DNA from: Cytophagales bacterium
GTDB taxonomy: Bacteria; Bacteroidota; Bacteroidia; Cytophagales; Thermoflexibacteraceae
Direction of reading: 5' to 3'
DNA length: 48,002 nucleotides
Assembly: GCA_013299115.1 (NCBI GenBank)
Contig: JAAFKA010000034.1
Location: forward strand, 1-48,002
In this document: piece after piece, positions 15,683 through 43,470 of the stretch
Numbering within the stretch: the first letter of the stretch is position 1
Layout of the letters: each line of letters begins with the position of its first letter
Notes under the pieces: model-generated
Database searches by the model: none
The model's input: the letters and a program-made list of their open reading frames with translations, nothing else
Told to the model about the DNA's origin: nothing
Position numbers and translations under genes: made by a program

Positions 15683-16349
15683 GTTAGCTACACCCCCTCA
15701 TAAATCTTTTCCACTTCTATTGCCACTTGCAAACTTTCAAACCGCAAAATGTCTTGCATTTTGCCATATTGCTGCATAAAAACAGCATTTTCTTTGCCAC
15801 TCTTTTCTTTGGTATAATATTTTATCAAAGTTTGGTCTTGCCAAATCAAAATGTATTCTTGCAGACTTTCTATGCTTAGGTATTCACGCAATTTGTCGTT
15901 TTGGTCTATTTCGGCAGTGCTTGGCGACAAAATCTCGATAATCACCAAAGGATTGAGTAGCTGGTTGTTTTCATTGTACTGTTCTTTTTCCTTGTTTGTA
16001 ACTATGGCATCGGGCTTGCGATATTTTTTGAAAACAGCCAAATACAATTCGCAACCGTCTATGTGTATGCGGAATAAATTTTCGTCTGTTGCCCTATTCA
16101 AACGGCGGTTGAGATTAGACAAAATAATTTTGTGTTTTTTCGAAGCCATAGCCAATAAGGAGTTAATTTCTGTTTGTTCGGCAGCCAAAACAGCCGCTAC
16201 CACTTCTGCGTCTATGGGTTTGCCTGCGTGTTTGTCGTAAATAAAACCCTCCGAAAACTCAAAAGCAACCTCCAACTCCTCCAATTTTTGGCAGAAGTCA
16301 AAATATTCGGTGGCTGTATAAAGCCTTGTGGGTGCTGAGGTCATGGAAA
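15683..16349. repeat. Left copy of a 667-bp direct repeat (Uma2 unit)
   Basis: This unit covers a whole Uma2 gene from GTTAGCTACACC to CATGGAAA and recurs at 17204-17870 at a constant offset of 1521 bp. Similarity ends sharply on the 3' side of the genes and fades within a few bases beyond their start codons. A HEPN/MNT pair lies between the copies. Confidence 0.9.
15688..16344 (-). CDS. Uma2-family (DUF820) predicted nuclease, copy 1
   Basis: This 218-residue protein has the PD-(D/E)XK-like core of Uma2 proteins: RKPDAIV, then PLVIIEILSPSTAEIDQNDKLREY and LQEYILI. The Asp of PDAIV, Glu of IIEIL and the following Asp and Lys are the expected metal and catalytic residues. The family is widespread in cyanobacteria and Bacteroidota and its biological role is uncertain. 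It is nearly identical to the gene at 17209-17865; the differences cluster in one patch, where this copy reads RRLNRATDENL between ILSNLN and FRIHIDG. Strand and spacing place it divergent from the HEPN gene at 16453. Confidence 0.85.
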   Translation of the reverse strand: MTSAPTRLYTATEYFDFCQKLEELEVAFEFSEGFIYDKHAGKPIDAEVVAAVLAAEQTEINSLLAMASKKHKIILSNLNRRLNRATDENLFRIHIDGCELYLAVFKKYRKPDAIVTNKEKEQYNENNQLLNPLVIIEILSPSTAEIDQNDKLREYLSIESLQEYILIWQDQTLIKYYTKEKSGKENAVFMQQYGKMQDILRFESLQVAIEVEKIYEGV

Positions 16350-16409
16350 CAAAATTGGATAGTAAGGTATGAAATTTATACTAAAATAAGAAAATATTTC
16401 TCTTTTTGT

Positions 16410-16417
16410 TATATTTG
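16410..16417 (+). promoter_or_regulatory. -7 promoter box of the HEPN/MNT pair
   Basis: TATATTTG matches TAnnTTTG exactly, 35 bases before the HEPN ATG. It lies outside the Uma2 repeat unit, so the toxin-antitoxin pair brings its own promoter. Confidence 0.45.
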
Positions 16418-16452
16418 CCACACAAAATTATATTAAGCACAAACATACAAAA

Positions 16453-16881
16453 ATGCAAGACATTCGCTGGCAACAAAGGTTTAGCAATTTTCGGAGGGCA
16501 TTGGCTCAATTAGAAAAAGCTGTTGAGTTGGTAGCCGAAAGACAACTATCTGAACTCGAAATACAAGGACTTATTCAAGGTTTTGAATATACATATGAGT
16601 TAGCTTGGAATGTGTTGAAAGATTATTTGCAATATCAAGGAAACCAAGAATTGACAGGGGCAAGAGATACCATCACAGAGGCTTTTCGAGTTCGGTTAAT
16701 CACAAAAGGCGAGGCATGGATGCGTATGTTTAGAGATAGAAACCAAACTTCACATACGTATAATGAAACAACCGCAATTTTGGTGGCAGATGCTGTGGTT
16801 ACGATTTACTATGATTTATTCAAGGAATTAGAAACTGTCATGGCTGCAAAAATAAACCCAAATCCTCCTTTATTGGACTAA
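16453..16881 (+). CDS. HEPN-family protein (HI0074-like), toxin of a HEPN/MNT pair
   Basis: This 142-residue all-helical protein belongs to the nucleotidyltransferase substrate-binding group typified by HI0074. Its helices include FEYTYELAWNVLKDYLQYQG, and the R-x4-6-H signature is present as RDRNQTSH (residues 94/96-101). HEPN proteins are often ribonucleases, kept inactive by the partner MNT enzyme that modifies residues near this motif. The partner gene follows after 4 bases. The pair sits exactly between two direct copies of a Uma2 gene. Confidence 0.88.
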   Translation: MQDIRWQQRFSNFRRALAQLEKAVELVAERQLSELEIQGLIQGFEYTYELAWNVLKDYLQYQGNQELTGARDTITEAFRVRLITKGEAWMRMFRDRNQTSHTYNETTAILVADAVVTIYYDLFKELETVMAAKINPNPPLLD

Positions 16882-16885
16882 TTTA

Positions 16886-17200
16886 ATGCTAAAAATGACG
16901 AACAAATACGGCTTATCAGCAGAAACTTTTGAGCAAATACAGGCTACTTTTCGCAAGTTCCCACAAGTGCAGCAAGCTATTTTGTATGGTTCACGGGCAA
17001 AAGGTAATTTTCATAATGGGTCAGACATAGACATTGTGTTGCAAGGCAAGGACTTGAATTTACAGGTGCTTGCAGACATTGGGCTTAGTTTAGACGACCT
17101 TTTTTTACCCTATAAAATTGACCTCAGCATTTGGCAACACATCAACAATCCAGATTTATTAAGTCATATAGAAAGGGTAGGTGTTGTGATAAACAAGTAG
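16886..17200 (+). CDS. MNT minimal nucleotidyltransferase (antitoxin)
   Basis: This 104-residue protein has the polymerase-beta-like nucleotidyltransferase motif LYGSRAKGNFHNGSDIDIV: Gly35-Ser36 and the metal ligands Asp47 and Asp49. In HEPN/MNT systems such enzymes transfer AMP to the HEPN toxin and silence it. ATG at 16886 and ATG at 16895 are both possible starts; the first is closer to the upstream stop. The stop at 17200 is only 8 bases from the converging Uma2 gene. Confidence 0.88.
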   Translation: MLKMTNKYGLSAETFEQIQATFRKFPQVQQAILYGSRAKGNFHNGSDIDIVLQGKDLNLQVLADIGLSLDDLFLPYKIDLSIWQHINNPDLLSHIERVGVVINK

Positions 17201-17203
17201 CTT

Positions 17204-17870
17204 GTTAGCTACACCCCCTCATAAATCTTTTCCACTTCTATTGCCACTTGCAAACTTTCAAACCGCAAAATGTCTTGCATTTTGTCATATTGCTGCATAA
17301 AAACAGCATTTTCTTGGCTATTTTTTTCTTTGGTGTAGTGTTTTATCAAAGTTTGGTCTTGCCAAATCAAAATGTATTCTTGCAAACTTTCTATGCTCAT
17401 ATATTCACGCAATTTGTCGTTTTGGTCTATTTCGGCAGTGCTTGGCGAGAGGATTTCGATAATCACTAAGGGGTTAAGTAGTTGGTCGTTTTCATTGTAA
17501 AGTTCTTTTTCCTTGTTTGTAACTATGGCATCGGGCTTGCGATATTTTTTGAAAACAGCCAAATATAATTCGCAACCGTCTATGTGTATGCGGAAACCAT
17601 TTGGCAACGCAAAAGTAGCCAAGTGCATATTGAGATTAGACAAAATAATTTTGTGCTTTTTTGAAGCCATAGCCAATAAGGAGTTAATGTCTGTTTGTTT
17701 GGCAGCCAAAACAGCAGCTACCACTTCTGCGTCTATGGGCTTGCCTGCGTGCTTGTCGTAAATAAAACCCTCCGAAAACTCAAAAGCAGCCTCCAACTCC
17801 TCCAATTTTTGGCAGAAGTCAAAATATTCGGTGGCTGTATAAAGCCTTGTGGGTGCTGAGGTCATGGAAA
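17204..17870. repeat. Right copy of the 667-bp direct repeat (Uma2 unit)
   Basis: This is the second copy of the unit at 15683-16349, in the same orientation. After CATGGAAA both flanks continue with TTGGATA, with an extra CAAAA in the left copy, so the original duplicated segment was slightly longer. Recombination between the copies would remove the HEPN/MNT pair and leave one Uma2 gene. Confidence 0.9.
17209..17865 (-). CDS. Uma2-family (DUF820) predicted nuclease, copy 2
   Basis: This 218-residue protein is the same length as copy 1 and nearly identical to it, with the same core PDAIV, IIEILSPSTAEIDQNDKL and SLQEYILIW. The clearest difference is an 11-residue patch that here reads MHLATFALPNG between ILSNLN and FRIHIDG, while flanking sequence is almost unchanged. 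Such a block fits gene conversion from a third relative, not point mutation. A few scattered changes (for example KEKNSQENA for KEKSGKENA) show the duplication is not brand new. Confidence 0.85.
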   Translation of the reverse strand: MTSAPTRLYTATEYFDFCQKLEELEAAFEFSEGFIYDKHAGKPIDAEVVAAVLAAKQTDINSLLAMASKKHKIILSNLNMHLATFALPNGFRIHIDGCELYLAVFKKYRKPDAIVTNKEKELYNENDQLLNPLVIIEILSPSTAEIDQNDKLREYMSIESLQEYILIWQDQTLIKHYTKEKNSQENAVFMQQYDKMQDILRFESLQVAIEVEKIYEGV

Positions 17871-34368: not shown

Positions 34369-37014
34369 ATGAAAGCTAACGAAATACGCAAAACCTTTTT
34401 GGATTTTTTTGCTTCTAAGCAACACTTAATTGTGCCGTCTGCACCCATTGTGCCAAAAAACGACAGTACACTGATGTTTATCAATTCGGGTATGGCTCCG
34501 TTCAAAGATTTTTTCTTGGGCAACGGAAATCCACCTTCAAAACGCATTGCCGATACGCAAAAATGTTTGCGAGTTTCGGGCAAGCACAATGACCTCGAAG
34601 ATGTAGGCATTGACACCTATCACCACACACTTTTTGAGATGTTGGGAAATTGGTCGTTTGGCGACTATTTTAAGCAAGATGCCATTACTTGGGCGTGGGA
34701 ATTGTTGGTTGATGTCTATAAATTACCAAAAGATAGGTTGTATGTTTCTGTTTTTGGTGGCGACAAAAATGATGGTTTAGCCCCTGATAATGAGGCTTTT
34801 GCAATTTGGGAGAAAATTCTTGGTGGCAAAGAACGGATTTTGTACGGCTCGAAAAAAGATAATTTTTGGGAAATGGGCGAAACAGGTCCTTGTGGTTGCT
34901 GTTCAGAAATTCACATAGATTTGCGACCAGACGAAGAACGTAAACAAGTTTCGGGTTATGATTTGGTAAACAATGACCACCCACAAGTTATCGAAATTTG
35001 GAACAATGTGTTTATGGAATTTGAACGGAAGGCAGATAAAAGTCTTGTCAAATTGCCCGCAAAACACGTAGATACAGGAATGGGTTTTGAAAGATTGGTA
35101 CGTGCCATTCAAAACAAAACTTCAAATTATGATACAGATATTTTTACGCCAACTTTGGCAATTATAGAAGCACTTTCGGGCTTAAAATACGGACAAAATG
35201 AGCCTACGGATATTGCTATGCGTGTAATTGCCGACCATATTCGTGCTATTGCTTTCACGATTGCAGACGGACAATTACCTTCTAATGTGAAACAAGGTTA
35301 TGTAATTCGCCGAATTTTGCGTAGGGCTGTGCGTTATGGTTATAGCAAATTGAATTTGAAAGAACCGTTTTTGGTAAAATTAATTCCAAATTTAGCAGCA
35401 CAATTTTCGGAGGTTTTCCCAGAATTGAAAGCACAACAGGAGTTTGTTAGTCGTGTGATTTTGGAAGAAGAAACTTCGTTTTTGCGTACCTTAGAAAATG
35501 GTTTGCGTTTGTTTGAGGCTATTAAACCGAATGTAAAAAATAATTTGATTGAGGGTAAAGTAGTATTTGAATTGTACGATACTTTTGGGTTTCCGTTAGA
35601 TTTAACAGCTTTGATTGCCAGAGAAAATGGAATGTCGATAGACGAAGCAGGTTTTACAGTTTTGATGCAAGAGCAAAAAGATAGGTCAAGACAGGCTACA
35701 AAAGTTGAAAAAGGTGATTGGATTGTGCTTGATGAGGAATTTGAAAAAACGGAATTTATTGGCTACGAATACCAAGAATGTACGACCAAAATTGTGAAAT
35801 ACAGAGAGGTGAAAGATGCCAAACAAAGCTATTTCCAAATTGTATTGGAAAAAACTCCGTTTTATGCAGAAAGTGGTGGACAAGTGGGAGATAAAGGAAT
35901 TTTGGAAGTTGGCGGACAAAAATTAAATGTTTTTGATACCAAAAAGGAAAATGATTTGCTAGTGCATTTGGTTGTTAAGAACAAGGAAACAGCAGACTTT
36001 CCAAGTCTTAAAGACTTGGAAAGTTTACAAGTGAAAGCAAAGATTGACAAAAACCGCAGAAGTTTAACCGAAAATAACCACAGTGCAACGCACTTAGCAC
36101 ACGCAGCTTTGCGTCAAGTGTTGGGAACTCACGTTGCTCAAAAAGGTTCTTTGGTAAATGACGAGGTTTTGCGTTTTGACTTTTCGCACTTTGCAAAAGT
36201 TACAGATGAGGAATTGGCAAAAGTGGAAACTATTGTAAATCAGAAGATTAGGGAAAATATTGCCCTCGAACAACGCCAAAATGTGCCGATTGAAGAAGCT
36301 AAAAATTTGGGTGCAATGGCTTTGTTTGGCGAAAAATACGGTGATTTTGTTCGTGTCATTACGTTTGACAAAAATTATTCTGTTGAGTTGTGCGGTGGTA
36401 CTCACGTGCCAAATACAGGGAAAATTGGTGCTTTCAAATTTATTGCAGAAAGTTCAGTAGCAGCAGGTGTAAGGCGTATTGAGGCTGTTACTTCTACCAA
36501 AGCAGAGGAATTAGTAGCTGCAAAATTGAAAGTTGTTGATGATTTGGTGGAATTGCTAAAAAATCCAAAGGACATTGTAAAAACTGTAAGCAATTTGTTA
36601 GACGAAAAAGCAGAGTTGCAAAAACAAATTGAGGCGTATCAACACAAAGAAATTCAGGCAGTTAAGCAAAGTTTATTAGGCAAGATAACGCAGAAAAATG
36701 GCGTTTCTGTGATTGCCGAAATCGTAACTTTGCCCCACGCAGAGGCTTTGCGTACTGTTGCCTTTGAACTCAAAAACCAGGTAGAAAACTTGTTTTTAGT
36801 TTTGGCTTCTGACATTGCAGGAAAACCACAAATTGCGGTGATAATTGCCGAAAACTTGGTACAAGACAAAGGTTTGCACGCAGGAAATATCGTCAAGGAA
36901 CTTGCCTCAGCAATTAAAGGCGGCGGCGGCGGACAAGCATTTTTTGCTACCGCAGGCGGAAATGATGTGAGTGGATTGGGGAAAGTGGTTGAGAAAGGGA
37001 AAGGGTTGGTTTAA
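34369..37014 (+). CDS. alaS: Alanyl-tRNA synthetase
   Basis: This 881-residue enzyme charges tRNA-Ala. The class II core begins at once (IRKTFLDFFASKQHLIVPSAP), with motif 2 in YHHTLFEMLGNWSFGDYF. The editing domain has the zinc/catalytic motifs HSATHLAHAAL and LCGGTHVPNTG. The C-Ala part ends in GGGGGQAFFATAGGNDVSGL. Length and domain order are normal. The gene is intact, but its last 84 bases are copied at 37845-37928, and its promoter region is copied at 33463-33485. REP palindromes follow 7 bases after the stop. Confidence 0.97.
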   Translation: MKANEIRKTFLDFFASKQHLIVPSAPIVPKNDSTLMFINSGMAPFKDFFLGNGNPPSKRIADTQKCLRVSGKHNDLEDVGIDTYHHTLFEMLGNWSFGDYFKQDAITWAWELLVDVYKLPKDRLYVSVFGGDKNDGLAPDNEAFAIWEKILGGKERILYGSKKDNFWEMGETGPCGCCSEIHIDLRPDEERKQVSGYDLVNNDHPQVIEIWNNVFMEFERKADKSLVKLPAKHVDTGMGFERLVRAIQNKTSNYDTDIFTPTLAIIEALSGLKYGQNEPTDIAMRVIADHIRAIAFTIADGQLPSNVKQGYVIRRILRRAVRYGYSKLNLKEPFLVKLIPNLAAQFSEVFPELKAQQEFVSRVILEEETSFLRTLENGLRLFEAIKPNVKNNLIEGKVVFELYDTFGFPLDLTALIARENGMSIDEAGFTVLMQEQKDRSRQATKVEKGDWIVLDEEFEKTEFIGYEYQECTTKIVKYREVKDAKQSYFQIVLEKTPFYAESGGQVGDKGILEVGGQKLNVFDTKKENDLLVHLVVKNKETADFPSLKDLESLQVKAKIDKNRRSLTENNHSATHLAHAALRQVLGTHVAQKGSLVNDEVLRFDFSHFAKVTDEELAKVETIVNQKIRENIALEQRQNVPIEEAKNLGAMALFGEKYGDFVRVITFDKNYSVELCGGTHVPNTGKIGAFKFIAESSVAAGVRRIEAVTSTKAEELVAAKLKVVDDLVELLKNPKDIVKTVSNLLDEKAELQKQIEAYQHKEIQAVKQSLLGKITQKNGVSVIAEIVTLPHAEALRTVAFELKNQVENLFLVLASDIAGKPQIAVIIAENLVQDKGLHAGNIVKELASAIKGGGGGQAFFATAGGNDVSGLGKVVEKGKGLV

Positions 37015-37021
37015 ATACGAT

Positions 37022-37131
37022 TTGTCCGACACCTTGAAGGTGTCGGACAAGTGTTTTTATTTATCCTACACCTTGAAGGTGTCGGATAAATCGTATTTAT
37101 TTCTATCAGACACCTACAAGATGTCGGATAA
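37022..37131. repeat. Three REP palindromes upstream of the RAYT gene
   Basis: Three 29-bp hairpins of the TCCGACACCT family lie at 37022-37050 (perfect arms TTGTCCGACACCT and AGGTGTCGGACAA), 37061-37089 (one mismatch, CCTACACC) and 37103-37131 (more degenerate, ATCAGACACCTACAAGATGT). The first is followed by GTGTTTTTATT, which also follows the copy at 37802-37830. They fill the space between alaS and the RAYT gene. Confidence 0.9.
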
Positions 37132-37162
37132 ATTTTGAAACTAAATTTTATTGATAGAAACT

Positions 37163-37753
37163 ATGCAAATTACTGAAAATCAGCTTTATCACATTTATAA
37201 TAGAGGCAATAACAAGCAACAACTCTTTTTTAATCGTGACAATTATTTGTATTTTCTAACTTTTGTTCGTAAGCATATCTTACCTCATTGTGAAATTTTG
37301 GCGTATTGTTTAATGCCTAATCATTTTCATTTTTTGATTTATGCAACTGAAAATGCAGCTAAGAAAATCAAATTAGGAAATATAGAAGTTACTACGTTAG
37401 GAAATGGTTTTAGAATTTCTTTAAGCAGTTATGCAAAGGGTGTGAATGTGCAACAGCAAAGACAAAATGTATTATTTAAGCCAAAAACGGAGGCAAAACC
37501 ATTGATAGATGGTTCAGCTAATTATGGTTTTACTTGCTTTCAATACATTCACCAAAACCCTTACAAAGCTGGTTTGGTAAGCAAAATAGAAGATTGGGAG
37601 TTTTCTTCTTTCCGAGATTATGCAGGTTTGCGAAAAGGTACACTTTGTAATCAAACATTTGCCAATGAATTTATTGATTTTGACAGAGATAATTTTCTGC
37701 AACAGTCATACAACGTGATAGATGAAAAGTTGTTGCAAAAGATTTTTTTATAG
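37163..37753 (+). CDS. REP-associated tyrosine transposase (RAYT), Y1/HUH family
   Basis: This 196-residue protein has the RAYT order of motifs: YHIYNRGNNKQQLFF, the metal-binding HUH pair His54/His56 in CLMPNHFHFLIY, the candidate nucleophile Tyr90 in SLSSYAKGVNV, then YIHQNPYKAGLVSK and WEFSSFRDYAG. Such enzymes cut and join single-stranded DNA at REP hairpins. ATG at 37163 is chosen over TTG at 37151 because the conserved part starts there. REP palindromes lie on both sides (three before, three after), making a complete REP/RAYT unit. It sits directly behind alaS, whose 3' end is duplicated on its far side. Confidence 0.93.
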   Translation: MQITENQLYHIYNRGNNKQQLFFNRDNYLYFLTFVRKHILPHCEILAYCLMPNHFHFLIYATENAAKKIKLGNIEVTTLGNGFRISLSSYAKGVNVQQQRQNVLFKPKTEAKPLIDGSANYGFTCFQYIHQNPYKAGLVSKIEDWEFSSFRDYAGLRKGTLCNQTFANEFIDFDRDNFLQQSYNVIDEKLLQKIFL

Positions 37754-37758
37754 CCAAC

Positions 37759-37830
37759 TTGTCCGACACCTTTTAGGTGTCGGACAAATGCCGAAAGAAA
37801 TTTGTCCGATACCTCGAAGGTATCGGACAA
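37759..37830. repeat. Two REP palindromes downstream of the RAYT gene
   Basis: The copies lie at 37759-37787 (perfect arms, loop TTT) and 37802-37830. In the second, GACACC has become GATACC and the partner GGTGTC has become GGTATC, so pairing is kept by a matched change. This argues that the hairpin itself is used. Confidence 0.9.
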
Positions 37831-37844
37831 GTGTTTTTATTGTT

Positions 37845-37928
37845 GGACAAGCATTTTTTGCTACCGCAGGCGGAAATGATGTGAGTGGATTGGGGAAAGT
37901 GGTGGAGAAAGGGAAAGGGTTGGTGTAA
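37845..37928 (+). pseudogene. Duplicate of the alaS 3' end (84 bp)
   Basis: This block, from GGACAAGC to the stop TAA, repeats alaS 36931-37014 with two T-to-G changes that leave the encoded residues unchanged (ending VEKGKGLV). It is preceded and followed by REP copies, as the real alaS end is followed by one. It has no start of its own and cannot be functional. Confidence 0.9.
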
Positions 37929-37935
37929 AGATAAT

Positions 37936-37964
37936 TTGTCCGACACCTCGAAGGTGTCGGATAA
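37936..37964. repeat. REP palindrome after the duplicated alaS end
   Basis: The arms TTGTCCGACACCT and AGGTGTCGGATAA (loop CGA) pair with one mismatch. It lies 7 bases after the stop of the alaS tail copy, the same distance as between the real alaS stop and the first REP copy. Confidence 0.9.
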
Positions 37965-38013: not shown

Positions 38014-38076
38014 ATGCTTAAAAAACATATTTTAATTGCCCTACTAACTTTTTTAGTGAATATTCTTTTTAAGTAG
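38014..38076 (+). pseudogene. Truncated signal-peptide ORF
   Basis: ATG at 38014 encodes 20 residues (MLKKHILIALLTFLVNILFK), a typical start of an exported protein, then a TAG at 38074-38076. The end coincides with the 3' end of the transposase relic on the other strand, so an exported-protein gene may have been cut off by that element. Confidence 0.35.
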
Positions 38077-38878
38077 CAGTTGGTTTTTGCATTCCTAAAA
38101 CGACTTTAATTTTCCTTAGATAAGTGTCTTCCTTTCGTAAAAAATAATGAGTTCTTTGTATTCTTTTAATCAACCTCATCATCCTTTCTGCGTCATTGTT
38201 GGTCTTGTCTGCCTTGTATCCAGTTCGTAAATAGGCAATGGTTTTTTCAAAATTATCTTTGATAAAAGTCCAGACTTTCTTCATTGGTTTTGCAAGTTTA
38301 TCCCAATAGGTTTCCTCCAATATATCCTTATAAGCGTATGCTTGTGCGGGATTTTGAACAGTCGCATACAAGGTTAGTAAGTCTTCTTTGAAGGCGTAAT
38401 TCAGGCTTACATCGGGATGTTTTTCACAGAATAGTAACACATTTTCTCTCTCGGTGTGGGTTAATTTTTCTTGCCCTTTCAGCATTAAAAAGGAGATGCG
38501 ATGAGCTTGTTTGCGATGTTTGAGTAGCTAGTTGGCAGTTCTATGTGCTTGTAAAGTCTTTTTAAGTGCTTTATTGACTTGTTGTACCAGGTGGAAAATA
38601 CAAAATTGGTGCAAGGCATTGACAAACAAATTACTAATGACAGACTCATAGGCAGGCAGCATATCAGTAACAACTAATGCCACCTTTTCTGCTACTAAAC
38701 CATTGGCTATCAACTCTTTATAATGTGCTGTAATGGCTTCCATACTATTACTAGCTGCTAAGTTGGCGTGCAAAGCTACACTCTTTGCGGTGCTATCAGT
38801 CTTGCCCGCACTGGCGATGACAAACTGTGTTCGGTATTTTACACTACTTTTGCTCAGTTTTTGGCTCTTTTTGGCTTG
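38069..38878 (-). pseudogene. Relic of an ISL3-like DDE transposase
   Basis: The frame is open from 38878 (just after a TAA) to the stop at 38069 except for one in-frame TAG at 38528-38530. It keeps VVTDMLPAYESVISNLF and HQFCIFHLVQQVNK in the upstream part and TNNDAERMMRLIKRIQRTHY near the end, a pattern like the ISL3 transposase catalytic domain. The N-terminal DNA-binding part and the first catalytic Asp are missing. It is therefore inactive twice over, by truncation and nonsense mutation. No clear terminal inverted repeats are left. Confidence 0.75.
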
Positions 38879-38932: not shown

Positions 38933-38950
38933 AACGGACTAAAGTCCGTT
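38933..38950. repeat. Short palindrome AACGGACT/AGTCCGTT
   Basis: Two perfect 8-base arms surround AA. It lies between the transposase relic and the stranded smc promoter. The remaining sequence of this 38879-39175 gap holds only that promoter and the smc start fragment. Confidence 0.5.
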
Positions 38951-39017
38951 ATACAATTTAATTAAAAATAAAATTGCATTTCAAAGTTGAATCTGCGAGT
39001 ACAAACATATATTCGGT

Positions 39018-39025
39018 TAATTTTG
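39018..39025 (+). promoter_or_regulatory. -7 promoter box, probably the original smc promoter
   Basis: TAATTTTG matches TAnnTTTG exactly, 5 bases before the ATG of the smc start fragment. The intact smc gene, 900 bases downstream, has no equally good box directly upstream, so its native promoter may have stayed here. Confidence 0.4.
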
Positions 39026-39030
39026 CTTGT

Positions 39031-39132
39031 ATGCTCCTCACCAAACTCGAAATAAAAGGCTTTAAATCATTTGCTGGCAAAATTGTCATCAATTTTGACA
39101 AAGGAATTAATGGGAAAAGATTTGTTAATTAA
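39031..39132 (+). pseudogene. Duplicated 5' fragment of smc
   Basis: ATG at 39031 opens 33 codons whose first 28 match the smc start (MLLTKLEIKGFKSFA.KIVINFDKGI) with Gly for Asp at residue 16 and mostly silent base changes. The match breaks off at NGKRFVN followed by TAA, before the Walker A motif. The intact gene starts at 39919. A two-gene RelE-like cassette lies between. Confidence 0.9.
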
Positions 39133-39175
39133 AAAATATATCGTAAATTTGTTAAGATAATAAAACAAAACAGCT

Positions 39176-39541
39176 ATGGAGGAAATACTAGTTGAAACTA
39201 CAAAAAGTTTTGATAAAGACTTAAAAAAACTTTCTGAAAAAGAGCAAAATCTTATATCCGAAAAACTTAATTTTCTAATTAGTTCTATTAGAGAAAAAGG
39301 TAATACTAAGCAATTATATAGACTTCAAAAACTTAAATTGCCTAATGATTTAAGTAGTTCTTTATTTGTTTTCAAAATAGATGTACAATTAAGGGCAATA
39401 CTTACCTTTGAGAAAGACCCTTTATTTAATCAGTCCGTAATGACACTTATGAGAGTTGTTAGACATAGTGATTTAGACAAAACTTTCAAGTCTGTTTCCG
39501 AATCTCTATACCAAGATATGGTTAATTTTAATAACGCATAA
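39176..39541 (+). CDS. RelE/ParE-superfamily-like protein, probable toxin
   Basis: This 121-residue protein has the order TTKSFDKDLKKLSEKE, KLPNDLSSSLFVFKID, QLRAILTFEKDP and VMTLMRVVRHSDLDKTF, which resembles the RelE/ParE toxin fold (core strand LRAILTFE, then a final strand with V..H). Such toxins act on ribosome-bound mRNA or gyrase. The next gene begins 2 bases after the stop. The pair is bracketed by two copies of the smc start, suggesting that it was inserted there. Confidence 0.6.
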   Translation: MEEILVETTKSFDKDLKKLSEKEQNLISEKLNFLISSIREKGNTKQLYRLQKLKLPNDLSSSLFVFKIDVQLRAILTFEKDPLFNQSVMTLMRVVRHSDLDKTFKSVSESLYQDMVNFNNA

Positions 39542-39543
39542 AT

Positions 39544-39876
39544 ATGGCGGAAATTAAAAAGCTACTTAATGAATTTGGGGTTATTTATGAAGCCAATAAA
39601 ATCTTACCACAAGACCTAAAATTAGATTTTTTAGAAGCTTTGGCTGAATTAGAAAATAACGAATGTCACAAAAATAGAAATTTTCCAAAAACAAGACTTC
39701 ATAAAGTAACTGGAATACAACAAGCTATTTATAGAGCAGATATTGATAAAATGTCAGGTTGGCGTATTCACGTGCAGTACAAAGATGGTTGTTTGGTGTT
39801 GAAAGATATAATTGAGGGACAAGCCCATGATGATGTAATAAAAGTCATTAACCGTAAAAAGAATAGATATAATTAG
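39544..39876 (+). CDS. Partner protein of the RelE-like toxin, itself RelE-like
   Basis: This 110-residue protein has a C-terminal half reading RLHKVTGIQQAIYRADI, GWRIHVQYKDGCLVLKDII and HDDVIKVINRKKNRY. That also looks like a RelE-type core (Y.A.I, WRI..QY, H at the end), while the N-terminal 45 residues are helical and acidic. If both partners are RelE-like, this is not a standard toxin-antitoxin pair, unless the helical N-terminus is the antitoxin part. A terminator follows directly. Confidence 0.55.
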   Translation: MAEIKKLLNEFGVIYEANKILPQDLKLDFLEALAELENNECHKNRNFPKTRLHKVTGIQQAIYRADIDKMSGWRIHVQYKDGCLVLKDIIEGQAHDDVIKVINRKKNRYN

Positions 39877-39902
39877 AAAACCATCAAAGTTTTGATGGTT
39901 TT
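39877..39902 (+). terminator. Terminator of the RelE-like pair
   Basis: AAAACCATCAAA and TTTGATGGTTTT are perfect 12-base arms with GT between, followed by TATTTTG. It overlaps the stretch immediately upstream of smc (ATG at 39919), so read-through from the upstream pair into smc should be limited. Confidence 0.75.
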
Positions 39903-39918
39903 TATTTTGATTAACTCA

Positions 39919-42900
39919 ATGCTCCTTACCAAACTCGAAATAAAAGGCTTTAAATCATTTGCCGACAAAATTGTTATCAATTTTGACAAGGGCATCACAG
40001 GAATTGTGGGTCCGAATGGCTGCGGAAAATCCAATGTAGTCGATGCGATACGTTGGGTACTTGGCGAACAACGCACCAAAAATTTGCGGTCAGACAAAAT
40101 GGAAAACATCATTTTCAATGGCACAAAAGATAGAAAACCTACTCAACTTGCCGAAGTTTCGCTAACTTTTGACAATAATAAAGGACTTTTACCGACTGAA
40201 TACTCAACGGTTACGATAACTCGCCGACTTTTCCGCACAGGTGATAGCGAATATTTGCTAAATGGTGTGGGTTGTCGGTTGAAAGACATTAACAATTTGT
40301 TTCTTGATACAGGAATTGGCTCGGATAGTTATGCTATTATTGAGTTGAAAATGATAGATGAATTGTTGAATGACAACAATAATTCGAGGCGTGGGCTGTT
40401 TGAGGAAGCTGCGGGAATTTCAAAGTTTAAAATTCGTAAAAAGGAAACTTTGAAAAAATTGGAAGATACTGATGCCGATTTGGAAAGAGTGGAAGATTTA
40501 CTTTTTGAGATTGTCAAGAACTTAAAAACTCTCGAAAAACAAGCTAAACAAGCCGAAAAATATTTTGCTACCAAAGCCGAATATAAAAAACTAAGTATTG
40601 AAGTTGGTAAAAAAGTATTAGATAGACAGGCAAATAGTTTGGCAAGTTTGCAAGTAAAATTGAATAATGAGAAGTCGCAACGAATTGAAACGCAAGGACT
40701 TATAGAGAAAAATGAGAACGAAATTGAAACTATCAAACTGAAAAGTTTAGATAAGGAAAAATTGTATAATTCTCGTCAAAAAACTTTACAAGAGCATATT
40801 AACAAAATTCGTCAATATGAAAGTGATAAACGGATACGCCAAGAAAGGCTAAAATTGTTGCAAGAAAAGCAACAAACTCTAACAAAACAACAGCAAGAAG
40901 ACGAACAAAATTTGCAGTTTTTGAATGAACAACTTGCAAAATTGCAAATTGACAAAGCAACTGCGATACAAAAAGTTGCAGAAACTGAACAAATATTACA
41001 TAGCTTAAAAGCAGCATTAGACAAGCAAAAAGCAGAAAATTATGGTTTGCAACAAAATGTTACAGAGTTTTCAAAACAAATTAAAAGCAAGCAAGAAGAA
41101 TTGTATCAAGCTAAAAAAGCATTGGAAATAAACCAATTACAATATAATTCGCTAAGACAAGAACTCGAAAAATCGGCAAATGCGGACAGCCAACAACGCC
41201 AAAGTTTAACCGAATTTGACGACAGAATTGCAGATTTGAAAGAAGAAATCTCGGAAATAGAAACGGAAATCAAAACGGTAACACAAGAGGAAGAAAATCG
41301 TCAAACACAACTTGTTGATAAACAAGCATTTACAGACAAACTAAGAGAAGAATTAGCTTTGCAAAACCGCAGCGTAGATGCGTTGCAAAATGAATATAAT
41401 TTGACAAAGTCCTTAGTGGATAATCTCGAAGGTTTTCCCGAAGCTATAAAATATCTGAAACAGCATTACGAAAGTTTCAAAAACATTCCTTTGTTATCTG
41501 ATATTTTGACTTGCGAACCGCAATATCGTGTGGCTATTGAGAATTTTTTAGAGCCTTATATGAATTGCTACATTGTGGCTACGGAAAATGAAGCCTTTGC
41601 AGCCATAGAATTATTGAGTGATAAGCAAAAAGGAAAAGCAAGTTTTTTTGTTTTAGAAAATTTGCAAAATATTGATAATCAAGTAGTTGAAAATAAAGAT
41701 GGTGTAATTTCGGCTTTGCAAATTGTAGAATTTGAGGAGCAATACAGAAATTTATTGGGTGCTTTATTGGCAAATGTTTTTATAGCCCCCCAGCCCCCGA
41801 AGGGGGAGTTACATTTATTACGTCAAACTCCCCCTTCGGGGGTTGGGGGGCTTGCTTGGGGTTTTATTTGTGAAAATATTATCTACAAACCTTACACCAT
41901 TTCTGGTGGTTCTGTTGGTGCTTTTGAGGGCAAAAGAATTGGTAGGGCAAAGAATTTAGAGAAATTGCAAATAGAAATTGCAAAGCTAAAAACAGAAATT
42001 GCAGCCAAAACAGAAGCCTTACAAACTGAAAATTTGGCTATTGCAAATCTCAAAAATGCAACGCAAACAAAACACATTTCAAACTTGCAAAGACAACTTT
42101 CTGAAAAACAGCAAAGTCTTATTGCAGTTTGGACAAAGCAAGAACAATTAGCTAATTTGTTGAAAAACAATGAATTACGCAAAGAAGATATGCAGGAAAA
42201 AATGCAAATTCTGAAAGAGGAAATGCTTGATAATGAACCCTTCATAAAATCTTTGTTATTGGAATTGCAAACTGTGGAACAACTTTTAAGTGCTGCAAAT
42301 ACAAATTTGATAGCAGCAAACGAATTGCAAAATCAACAAAGTAATGCCTATAATCAACAAAATTTGGCGTATTATCAAAGTAAAAATCAAGTAGAAAATT
42401 TGCAAAAAGAAATAGAATTTCGCAGCAATAATTTGGAGAATATTACACAAAGAATTTCACGAAATCAACAAGAAATTAACAGTGCAAAAACAGAATTAGA
42501 GAAGTTAGAAAATAGCCAAGAAGTCAGCGAAGGAGAATTAGAAAGTTTGCAAGACGAAAAACTAAGCATTGAGGCAGGTGTGGCAGAGGCAGAAAAAGAC
42601 TATTTTGCAAGTCGTGGAGATATTACGGAAACGGAGAAAAACTTACGTGATTTAACTCGCAAACGTGATGGAATTGATGTGTTGGTGATGGAATTACAAA
42701 ACAAAGTGAATGAAAGCCTGATGCAGGTTAATTCAGTAAAAGATAGGCTTTCGGTAGAATTTGAGGTAGATTTGGAGGCAGAAATGCGACAAAATGCAGA
42801 AATTAGCCCATTAGCGGAGGAATTTCTGCGAGAAGAACAGCGAAAAGCAAAAGATGCCTTAGAAAAAATTGGTTCTATCAATCCGATGGCAATGGAGGCG

Positions 42901-43470
42901 TATAACGAAATTAAGGAAAGACACGATTTTATTGTGGCACAAAAAGACGATTTATTACGTGCAAAAACTTCGCTTTTAACCACAGTTTCGGAAATTGATA
43001 CCGTTGCAAAAGATACATTTTTGTCGGCTTTTGAGAAAATTCGGGCAAATTTTCAGGTGGTTTTTCGTTCTTTATTTACAGAAGACGACACTTGCGATTT
43101 GTATTTGGCTGATGCAAATGATGTTTTGGAAAGTAAAATTGAGATAATGGCAAAACCAAAAGGCAAACGTCCTTTGACAATTAACCAACTTTCGGGTGGC
43201 GAAAAAACTCTGACTGCAACGGCTTTGTTATTTTCTATTTACTTGCTTCGCCCTGCACCGTTTTGTATTTTTGACGAGGTTGATGCCCCGCTTGATGATG
43301 CGAATGTGGATAAATTTAACAATATTATTCGCAAATTTTCGGATAATTCGCAGTTTATTATTGTAACACACAACAAACGGACTATGTCGGCAACGGATAT
43401 TATGTATGGCGTTACAATGATTGAACAGGGGGTTTCGAGGGTGGTGGCGGTGGATTTGAGGGAGATGTAA
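39919..43470 (+). CDS. smc: Chromosome segregation protein SMC
   Basis: This 1183-residue ATPase compacts and segregates chromosomes. It has Walker A GPNGCGKSN (Gly31-Ser38), two long coiled coils, a hinge around residues 510-690, and at the C-terminus the signature LSGGEKTLTATALLF and Walker B CIFDEVDAPLDDANV. The ATG at 39919 is chosen over upstream TTG/ATG options because the family starts at MLLTKLEIKGFKSFA. The hinge holds an in-frame palindromic insertion at residues about 623-645. The partners scpA/scpB are not adjacent. A copy of its first 80 bases lies upstream at 39031. Confidence 0.96.
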   Translation: MLLTKLEIKGFKSFADKIVINFDKGITGIVGPNGCGKSNVVDAIRWVLGEQRTKNLRSDKMENIIFNGTKDRKPTQLAEVSLTFDNNKGLLPTEYSTVTITRRLFRTGDSEYLLNGVGCRLKDINNLFLDTGIGSDSYAIIELKMIDELLNDNNNSRRGLFEEAAGISKFKIRKKETLKKLEDTDADLERVEDLLFEIVKNLKTLEKQAKQAEKYFATKAEYKKLSIEVGKKVLDRQANSLASLQVKLNNEKSQRIETQGLIEKNENEIETIKLKSLDKEKLYNSRQKTLQEHINKIRQYESDKRIRQERLKLLQEKQQTLTKQQQEDEQNLQFLNEQLAKLQIDKATAIQKVAETEQILHSLKAALDKQKAENYGLQQNVTEFSKQIKSKQEELYQAKKALEINQLQYNSLRQELEKSANADSQQRQSLTEFDDRIADLKEEISEIETEIKTVTQEEENRQTQLVDKQAFTDKLREELALQNRSVDALQNEYNLTKSLVDNLEGFPEAIKYLKQHYESFKNIPLLSDILTCEPQYRVAIENFLEPYMNCYIVATENEAFAAIELLSDKQKGKASFFVLENLQNIDNQVVENKDGVISALQIVEFEEQYRNLLGALLANVFIAPQPPKGELHLLRQTPPSGVGGLAWGFICENIIYKPYTISGGSVGAFEGKRIGRAKNLEKLQIEIAKLKTEIAAKTEALQTENLAIANLKNATQTKHISNLQRQLSEKQQSLIAVWTKQEQLANLLKNNELRKEDMQEKMQILKEEMLDNEPFIKSLLLELQTVEQLLSAANTNLIAANELQNQQSNAYNQQNLAYYQSKNQVENLQKEIEFRSNNLENITQRISRNQQEINSAKTELEKLENSQEVSEGELESLQDEKLSIEAGVAEAEKDYFASRGDITETEKNLRDLTRKRDGIDVLVMELQNKVNESLMQVNSVKDRLSVEFEVDLEAEMRQNAEISPLAEEFLREEQRKAKDALEKIGSINPMAMEAYNEIKERHDFIVAQKDDLLRAKTSLLTTVSEIDTVAKDTFLSAFEKIRANFQVVFRSLFTEDDTCDLYLADANDVLESKIEIMAKPKGKRPLTINQLSGGEKTLTATALLFSIYLLRPAPFCIFDEVDAPLDDANVDKFNNIIRKFSDNSQFIIVTHNKRTMSATDIMYGVTMIEQGVSRVVAVDLREM
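41785..41851. repeat. GC-rich palindromic repeat inside the smc hinge
   Basis: The 26-base arms at 41785-41810 (GCCCCCCAGCCCCCGAAGGG onward) and 41826-41851 (ending CGGGGGTTGGGGGGC) pair with one mismatch around a 15-base loop. The G+C content contrasts sharply with the surrounding gene. It keeps the reading frame and encodes APQPPKGELHLLRQTPPSGV and a few more residues between ANVFI and FICENIIYKPY. Proline/glycine-rich peptides of this kind mark a repeat inserted into a coding region. Confidence 0.9.

Follow-up and report, generated by a model that had tools for sequence, protein, structure and literature searches.

The window analysed here is a stretch of 48,002 nucleotides, taken from the forward strand of contig JAAFKA010000034.1 of a Cytophagales bacterium of the family Thermoflexibacteraceae (assembly GCA_013299115.1, the source genome below). 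In this window the start of the essential gene smc is present twice, and two short adjacent genes, P1 and P2, lie between the copies. The features of the interval are:

39018..39025, + strand: -7 box TAATTTTG, 13 nt 5' of the broken smc ATG, presumably the original smc promoter
39031..39107, + strand: broken copy of the 77-nt smc start, with a frame that ends at 39132
39144..39151, + strand: box TAAATTTG upstream of P1, the probable promoter of the pair
39176..39541, + strand: P1, 121 aa, predicted RelE/YafQ-type fold, with a weak YafQ match under the cut-off
39544..39876, + strand: P2, 110 aa, strongly conserved, probably with a HigB/RelE-like fold
39876..39903, + strand: terminator-like hairpin 3' of P2 (12 pairs, 3 of them G-C)
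39919..39995, + strand: live copy of the same 77 nt, which opens the intact smc
39919..43470, + strand: intact smc, 1183 aa from the live ATG (SMC_N 7e-58, SMC_hinge 1e-16)

The two copies of the smc start, 888 nt apart, were identical at 71 of 77 positions (92%). A duplication of about 80 bases at 39031 and 39919, as claimed in an earlier note on this DNA, was thus reproduced exactly. The repeat itself is coding sequence. Five of the six differences were synonymous, and the sixth caused an amino acid change in the broken copy (D16G). A chance origin was rejected, because the local alignment of the copies scored 130, and 50 shuffles reached at most 41. An assembly artefact is unlikely, because both the copies (6 of 77 positions) and their flanks differ. 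A third smc start farther upstream was found neither in the source genome nor in the sister species (G001). By its looks, P1-P2 resembles an inserted unit, and the smc reading frame stays whole.

On the + strand between 38900 and 40000, boxes of the type TAnnTTTG were present at 39018, at 39144 before P1 and at 39403 inside P1, and there was none in the 60 nt preceding the live smc ATG. The better -7 box is therefore attached to the broken copy, as the earlier note had it. This box type was enriched in the source genome, being found upstream of 25 of 142 long open reading frames (ORFs) vs 3 of 142 random places. The box positions support a separation of smc from its presumed -7 box, which remains beside the broken copy. 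The hairpin behind P2 was the only terminator-like one between 38900 and 40100, where shuffles gave an average of 0.5.

Neither P1 nor P2 passed the cut-off of any Pfam or NCBIfam model, and no antitoxin family of these two collections matched either protein. The AlphaFold model of P1 (predicted local distance difference test, pLDDT, 85; predicted template modelling score, pTM, 0.79) was used for a structure search. Its 12 best PDB matches were all toxins of the RelE superfamily (RelE, YafQ, YoeB/ParE and HigB2), with E values from 5e-4 to 5e-2 and modest template modelling scores over the query (0.40-0.48). The predicted structure of P2 was weaker (pLDDT 71, pTM 0.56). HigB on the ribosome (E 0.04) was its top match, followed by YafQ (E 0.12), and no match reached E<=0.001. 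The models thus place P1 in the RelE/ParE toxin superfamily by fold, and P2 probably shares the RelE-type fold. A profile search of PDB is insufficient for this claim, because the top match of the P1 profile was a designed TIM barrel (E 0.005), narrowly ahead of YoeB (E 0.006). As single queries, P1 matched nothing in genome contigs or in PDB, P2 gave one weak unrelated match in PDB, and neither matched viral contigs. Of the two RelE-like genes and terminator described previously, P1 and the hairpin held up, P2 is suggestive, and the family scores gave no backing. The label RelE-like holds by predicted fold, not by family score. The antitoxin of the pair could be P2 or P1.

Among 395 genomes of the class, P2 was present in the source genome only, and P1 was found in four of 395 genomes of the phylum, including the source genome. 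P2 relatives were also found on plasmids of Nostoc (70%) and Anaerococcus (53%) and at 113 candidate loci in named genomes, 80 of which were kept. By their record titles, the kept loci were mostly cyanobacterial, with some from Bacteroidota, Planctomycetota and others. A P1 relative was detected at 80 of 82 P2 loci (the 80 kept and the two plasmids). The pair appears to be a unit that travels between phyla, because P2 remains 52-79% identical across them and a P1 relative is nearly always beside it. Mean column identity was 80% for P2 (38 aligned sequences) and 53% for P1 (46 aligned sequences). A conservation of about 80% over very distant bacteria is unusual for a toxin-type protein. In two Bacteroidota relatives (L268 and L297) the P2 frame apparently holds a stop, since its translation failed, and the L268 ORF is short.

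The comparison within the genus comprised one genome, G001, whose smc is 65% identical to that of the source genome. A broken smc start was present there as well (71 nt, 87%), 1156 nt upstream of the live start. The genes between the copies were different: a Panacea-domain gene (E 1.6e-24; antitoxin-like) and a partner of 145 aa that matched no family. The broken copy was itself preceded by a PD-T4-4-like pair of genes (E 5e-74 and 5e-9). As judged from the gene content, the smc slot is occupied in both species by different toxin-type pairs, so the slot is not specific to the P1-P2 cassette, which becomes one case of a class. The earlier note had named a strain with both smc starts and no gene pair as evidence against its reading; G001 goes halfway, having both starts and no RelE pair, but another toxin-type pair between them. 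Among the 14 loci tested for the duplication (G001 and 13 other genomes), only G001 was clear. An in-register duplicated start was absent from all 13 others, with 402 and 554 nt of upstream sequence covered in L043 and L050. Two loci barely topped their shuffles (L040, 34 vs a maximum of 30; L044, 31 vs 30), by gapped matches out of register. By rough arithmetic, with each genome assumed to have about 9,000 gene ends and around two dozen slots, independent hits on the same gene end in two species would be rare. The smc start would therefore be either preferred, or inherited and refilled. It looks as though selfish genes have docked repeatedly at the start of this essential gene.

Repeats of this kind were scanned for in 1.648 Mb of the source genome (about 30% of 5.5 Mb), in 0.407 Mb of G001 and in 0.400 Mb of G004, which belongs to another genus of the same family. 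Duplicated gene ends that enclose conflict or mobile genes were found seven times in the source genome and twice in G001. The G004 stretch had no convincing slot; its single flagged match was a simple-sequence array (C4 195948) and was not counted. Besides the smc slots of both species, these were:

alaS 3' end with a downstream palindrome, first copy: 36931..37050, + strand (alaS at 34369-37014)
REP-associated tyrosine transposase-like gene in the alaS slot: 37151..37753, + strand (NF047646 E 3e-12, Y1_Tnp E 6e-4, both under the cut-off)
broken second copy of the alaS 3' end: 37845..37964, + strand (120 nt, 94%, 7 differences)
epimerase start: 85 nt, 89%, around a 93-aa gene and AbiEii (1e-13)
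aspartokinase-homoserine dehydrogenase (thrA) start, L118:12652-15588: 180 nt, 99.4%, with a promoter box within the repeat
gene 3' end in C1: 93 nt, 98%, around a ParA-LRR-TIR protein and a partner
gene 3' end in C74, L153:14446-19963: 72 nt, 94%, around a bacterial gasdermin (6e-30), a CHAT protease, TPR and a gene read as REP-type
3' end of a gene read as dnaE in C74: 99 nt, 90%, around NB-ARC, TPR and Y1 transposase-like genes
desaturase 3' end in G001: 68 nt, 97%, around a PD-(D/E)XK gene (7e-44)

The epimerase slot had an empty counterpart. The methyltransferase and epimerase genes share 4 nt in G001. In the source genome they are separated by the AbiEii pair; the initial 85 nt of the epimerase have stayed next to the methyltransferase, and the stop codon of AbiEii shares bases with the ATG of the epimerase. 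Read from the sequences, this slot is the clearest proof of an insertion with target duplication. The youngest slot seen was that of thrA, which holds a type II restriction-modification (R-M) system: a methyltransferase, a type II restriction enzyme (8e-75), a gene that matched no family and a helix-turn-helix gene. Over all slots, the copies were 99.4, 98, 97, 94, 94, 92, 90, 89 and 87% identical, a gradation as expected for events of different age.

The source genome scan gave 34 non-array repeat pairs, of which seven were the gene-end slots and 17 others were inspected. In four of these 17, conflict or mobile genes lay inside intergenic repeats: a PIN pair (64 nt, 97%), an AAA pair (53 nt, 96%), a Fic gene (65 nt, 92%) and a REP-type gene (284 nt, 91%), the last so labelled by reading its sequence, with no label from Pfam. 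The others of the 17 looked ordinary. G001 had ten repeat pairs, comprising its two slots and three more that were inspected. Set aside as paralogues, repeat arrays or pairs in wrong orientation were 219174, 185110, 185113 and 7408 in C34 of the source genome (G000), and 134103, 134162, 134184, 134915 and 33299 in C1 and 147401 in C74.

At the 75 loci with enough flank, the 700 nt on either side of the relatives of the pair were also examined for direct repeats of 35 nt or more. Such repeats bracketed the pair at six of the 75 loci vs six of 606 control places (Fisher p 0.0008; p 0.004 when two Nostocales sharing one site were counted once). The bracketed relatives were in a Sphingobacteriales genome (84 nt, 97.6%), in Phormidium (65 nt, 97%), in the two Nostocales, where a 45-nt repeat at the end of a gene read as clpB brackets the pair, in L287, where the repeat sits in repeat-rich DNA, and in Pelagicoccus (L305). 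The 43-nt repeats of the last look, by eye, like integron attC sites.

From these observations, P1-P2 was probably inserted at the 5' end of smc with a long target duplication (77 nt). Insertion would copy the smc start, leaving a dead copy at the old promoter and a complete smc downstream of the insert. With the complete gene kept, the essential function would survive and the event would be viable; insertions breaking smc would be lost. Lying behind P1-P2 and a terminator and lacking its own -7 box, smc would probably be transcribed by read-through from the promoter of the pair, or else from an unseen promoter. Recombination between the 77-nt repeats would excise the pair cleanly and restore the promoter-smc arrangement. 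If the pair is addictive, cells losing it would be selected against. Copying at insertion followed by decay fits the young slots, as the 97-99% identity of their copies suggests. The earlier proposal that the cassette brought a replacement smc start is borne out in the inserted look, the whole smc frame and the separation from the promoter; for the start having been "brought", the smc copies give weak hints.

Several points weigh against this insertion and its extension to other slots. The event at smc itself is one that we infer, because the only same-genus genome compared is itself occupied. The four smc copies (first 60 nt) do not group by species, the broken copy of G001 having four differences from the live smc of the source genome and six from its own live copy, which is unlike a simple copy-then-decay. 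Bracketing repeats were lacking around 69 of the 75 pair relatives. Defence-type genes are common in this genome anyway, since two of ten random source-genome ORFs matched PADLOC at E<=1e-6. The analyst's judgement set the thresholds of the scan and decided which slots counted as convincing.

The main rival, though less likely, is import by homologous recombination, which corresponds to the replacement start of the earlier note. Another lineage would have had a cassette right in front of its smc, and its DNA would have paired on entry with the conserved start of the resident smc, making the live start the donor's and the broken one the resident's. Several observations speak for import. Of the six copy differences, five are synonymous. 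Over 60 nt, 6-8 differences separate the live copy of G001 from each of the other three, which show 4-6 among themselves. Among codons for the same amino acid, 51 of 71 were identical between the species in codons 1-78 vs 57 of 115 in codons 79-208 (Fisher p 0.004), a drop that resembles a recombination tract, but the break at codon 78 was picked post hoc, and the value rises again, to 0.765, in codons 209-234. Two cargoes at one slot would also follow naturally from import. The smc counts are tiny, however, and the near-identical copies of the young slots (99.4, 98 and 97%) need no donor.

A single ancestral duplication in the genus, with the cargo later exchanged between the repeats in each species, appears improbable. 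Both genus genomes carry the duplicated start with different cargo and the four copies are about equally distant, but a dead copy dating back to the species split would be expected to show more decay, and the upstream neighbours differ: alaS, transposase and an insertion sequence (IS) remnant in the source genome, a PD-T4-4-like pair and a long ORF read as dnaB in G001. Least credible, and very doubtful, is an IS-driven rearrangement or a plain partial smc duplication to which the pair came later and unrelated. An IS remnant does adjoin the broken copy and repeats resembling its end are found at many contig ends, but IS sequence flanks the pair on one side only, no IS was among the bracketed genes of the epimerase, thrA and other slots, and toxin- or defence-type cargo recurs. 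The remnant in question is:

38069..38773, - strand: two ISL3-type transposase remnants 5' of the broken smc start, with none on the other side of the pair

A composite transposon would have an IS on both sides; here the ISL3-type remnants are upstream only and smc is downstream. The stretch 38943-39011 recurs dozens of times in the genome, several times at contig starts, and is likely an IS end.

Beyond an insertion at smc with target duplication, a wider proposal can be put forward tentatively. The ends of genes that are conserved and essential might be interchangeable docking slots for selfish genes of the conflict type, where a cassette duplicates the end, which lets the gene survive, and takes the host gene into its own transcription unit, making the two co-dependent, and where slots such as the smc start and the alaS end are reoccupied across species, as if exchanged between repeats. 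In G009, which belongs to a different genus, a PD-(D/E)XK gene comes after the alaS end, and then a 104-nt copy of that end with three mismatches. Beyond that copy are a gene read as HEPN and, farther on, a degenerate alaS-end match. No repeat after alaS was seen in G006 or G001 within the stretch examined. The PD-(D/E)XK protein of the G009 alaS slot is 41.5% identical to that in the G001 desaturase slot. This family thus occurs in two different gene-end slots of two genera (L223; L130:4480-5076), and a relative also adjoins the RelE pair in Calothrix L282.

Further observations concern alaS and the rest of the window. The palindrome TTGTCCGACACC has six copies near the alaS slot (36931-37964). 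The alaS protein is 93-95% identical to that of the sister species, vs 65% for smc and 76% for aspartokinase-homoserine dehydrogenase; judging from these identities, a recent exchange of alaS between species is possible. Two long direct repeats (300 nt, 92%, and 241 nt, 97%) lie 1521 nt apart at 15683-17870.

These slots bear on an open question, the means by which small toxin and defence genes spread when they have no transposase. One genus carries one footprint for a RelE pair, AbiEii, Panacea, R-M, gasdermin, TIR-LRR, NB-ARC and PD-(D/E)XK genes, and the copies of graded age, together with one empty counterpart, are material for testing the mechanism. The footprint also offers a discovery route to unknown defence genes, by searching between a gene and the broken copy of its end. 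If the proposed insertion is true, the essential smc would rely on a toxin operon for its transcription.

Some integrative elements enter a gene end and restore the gene. The duplicated end likewise keeps the target gene whole here, but the P1-P2 cassette has no integrase or recombinase gene. With the toxin-antitoxin modules of the RelE/ParE superfamily (YafQ, YoeB, HigB), the pair shares the arrangement of two short adjacent genes and, for P1 and probably P2, the predicted fold. It differs in having no recognisable DNA-binding antitoxin gene, both proteins being toxin-like by fold, and in the unusual conservation of P2.

The closest likeness is to the insertion of R-M genes. According to passages in PMC3874152, PMC3031569 and PMC1643837, these genes insert with long, variable target duplications in the order of 100 bp; for this proposed process PMC1643837, PMC3031569, PMC3874152 and PMC2654758 cite Nobusato et al. 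2000 (Gene 259:99). As in those accounts, a transposase-free gene unit lies at smc between direct target repeats in the range of 100 bp (77 nt; those at alaS measure 120 nt), and the thrA slot of the source genome carries an R-M system. Unlike in them, the smc cargo is a RelE-fold pair, R-M cargo is confined to the thrA slot, and other slots hold AbiEii, Panacea, gasdermin/CHAT, TIR-LRR and NB-ARC genes. Here the duplication frequently involves one end of a conserved gene, and the smc slot is filled differently in two species. Because the cargo at smc is not R-M, the definition was applied to the process and not to the cargo. By its footprint, the process at these slots appears to be the same as the long target duplication of R-M genes. 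No paper describing such duplications for toxin-antitoxin or gasdermin genes was found in the open-access library searched. Compared with the R-M insertions, three things are new: cargo of toxin and defence type, conserved gene ends being used again and again, and a slot whose cargo differs between two species.

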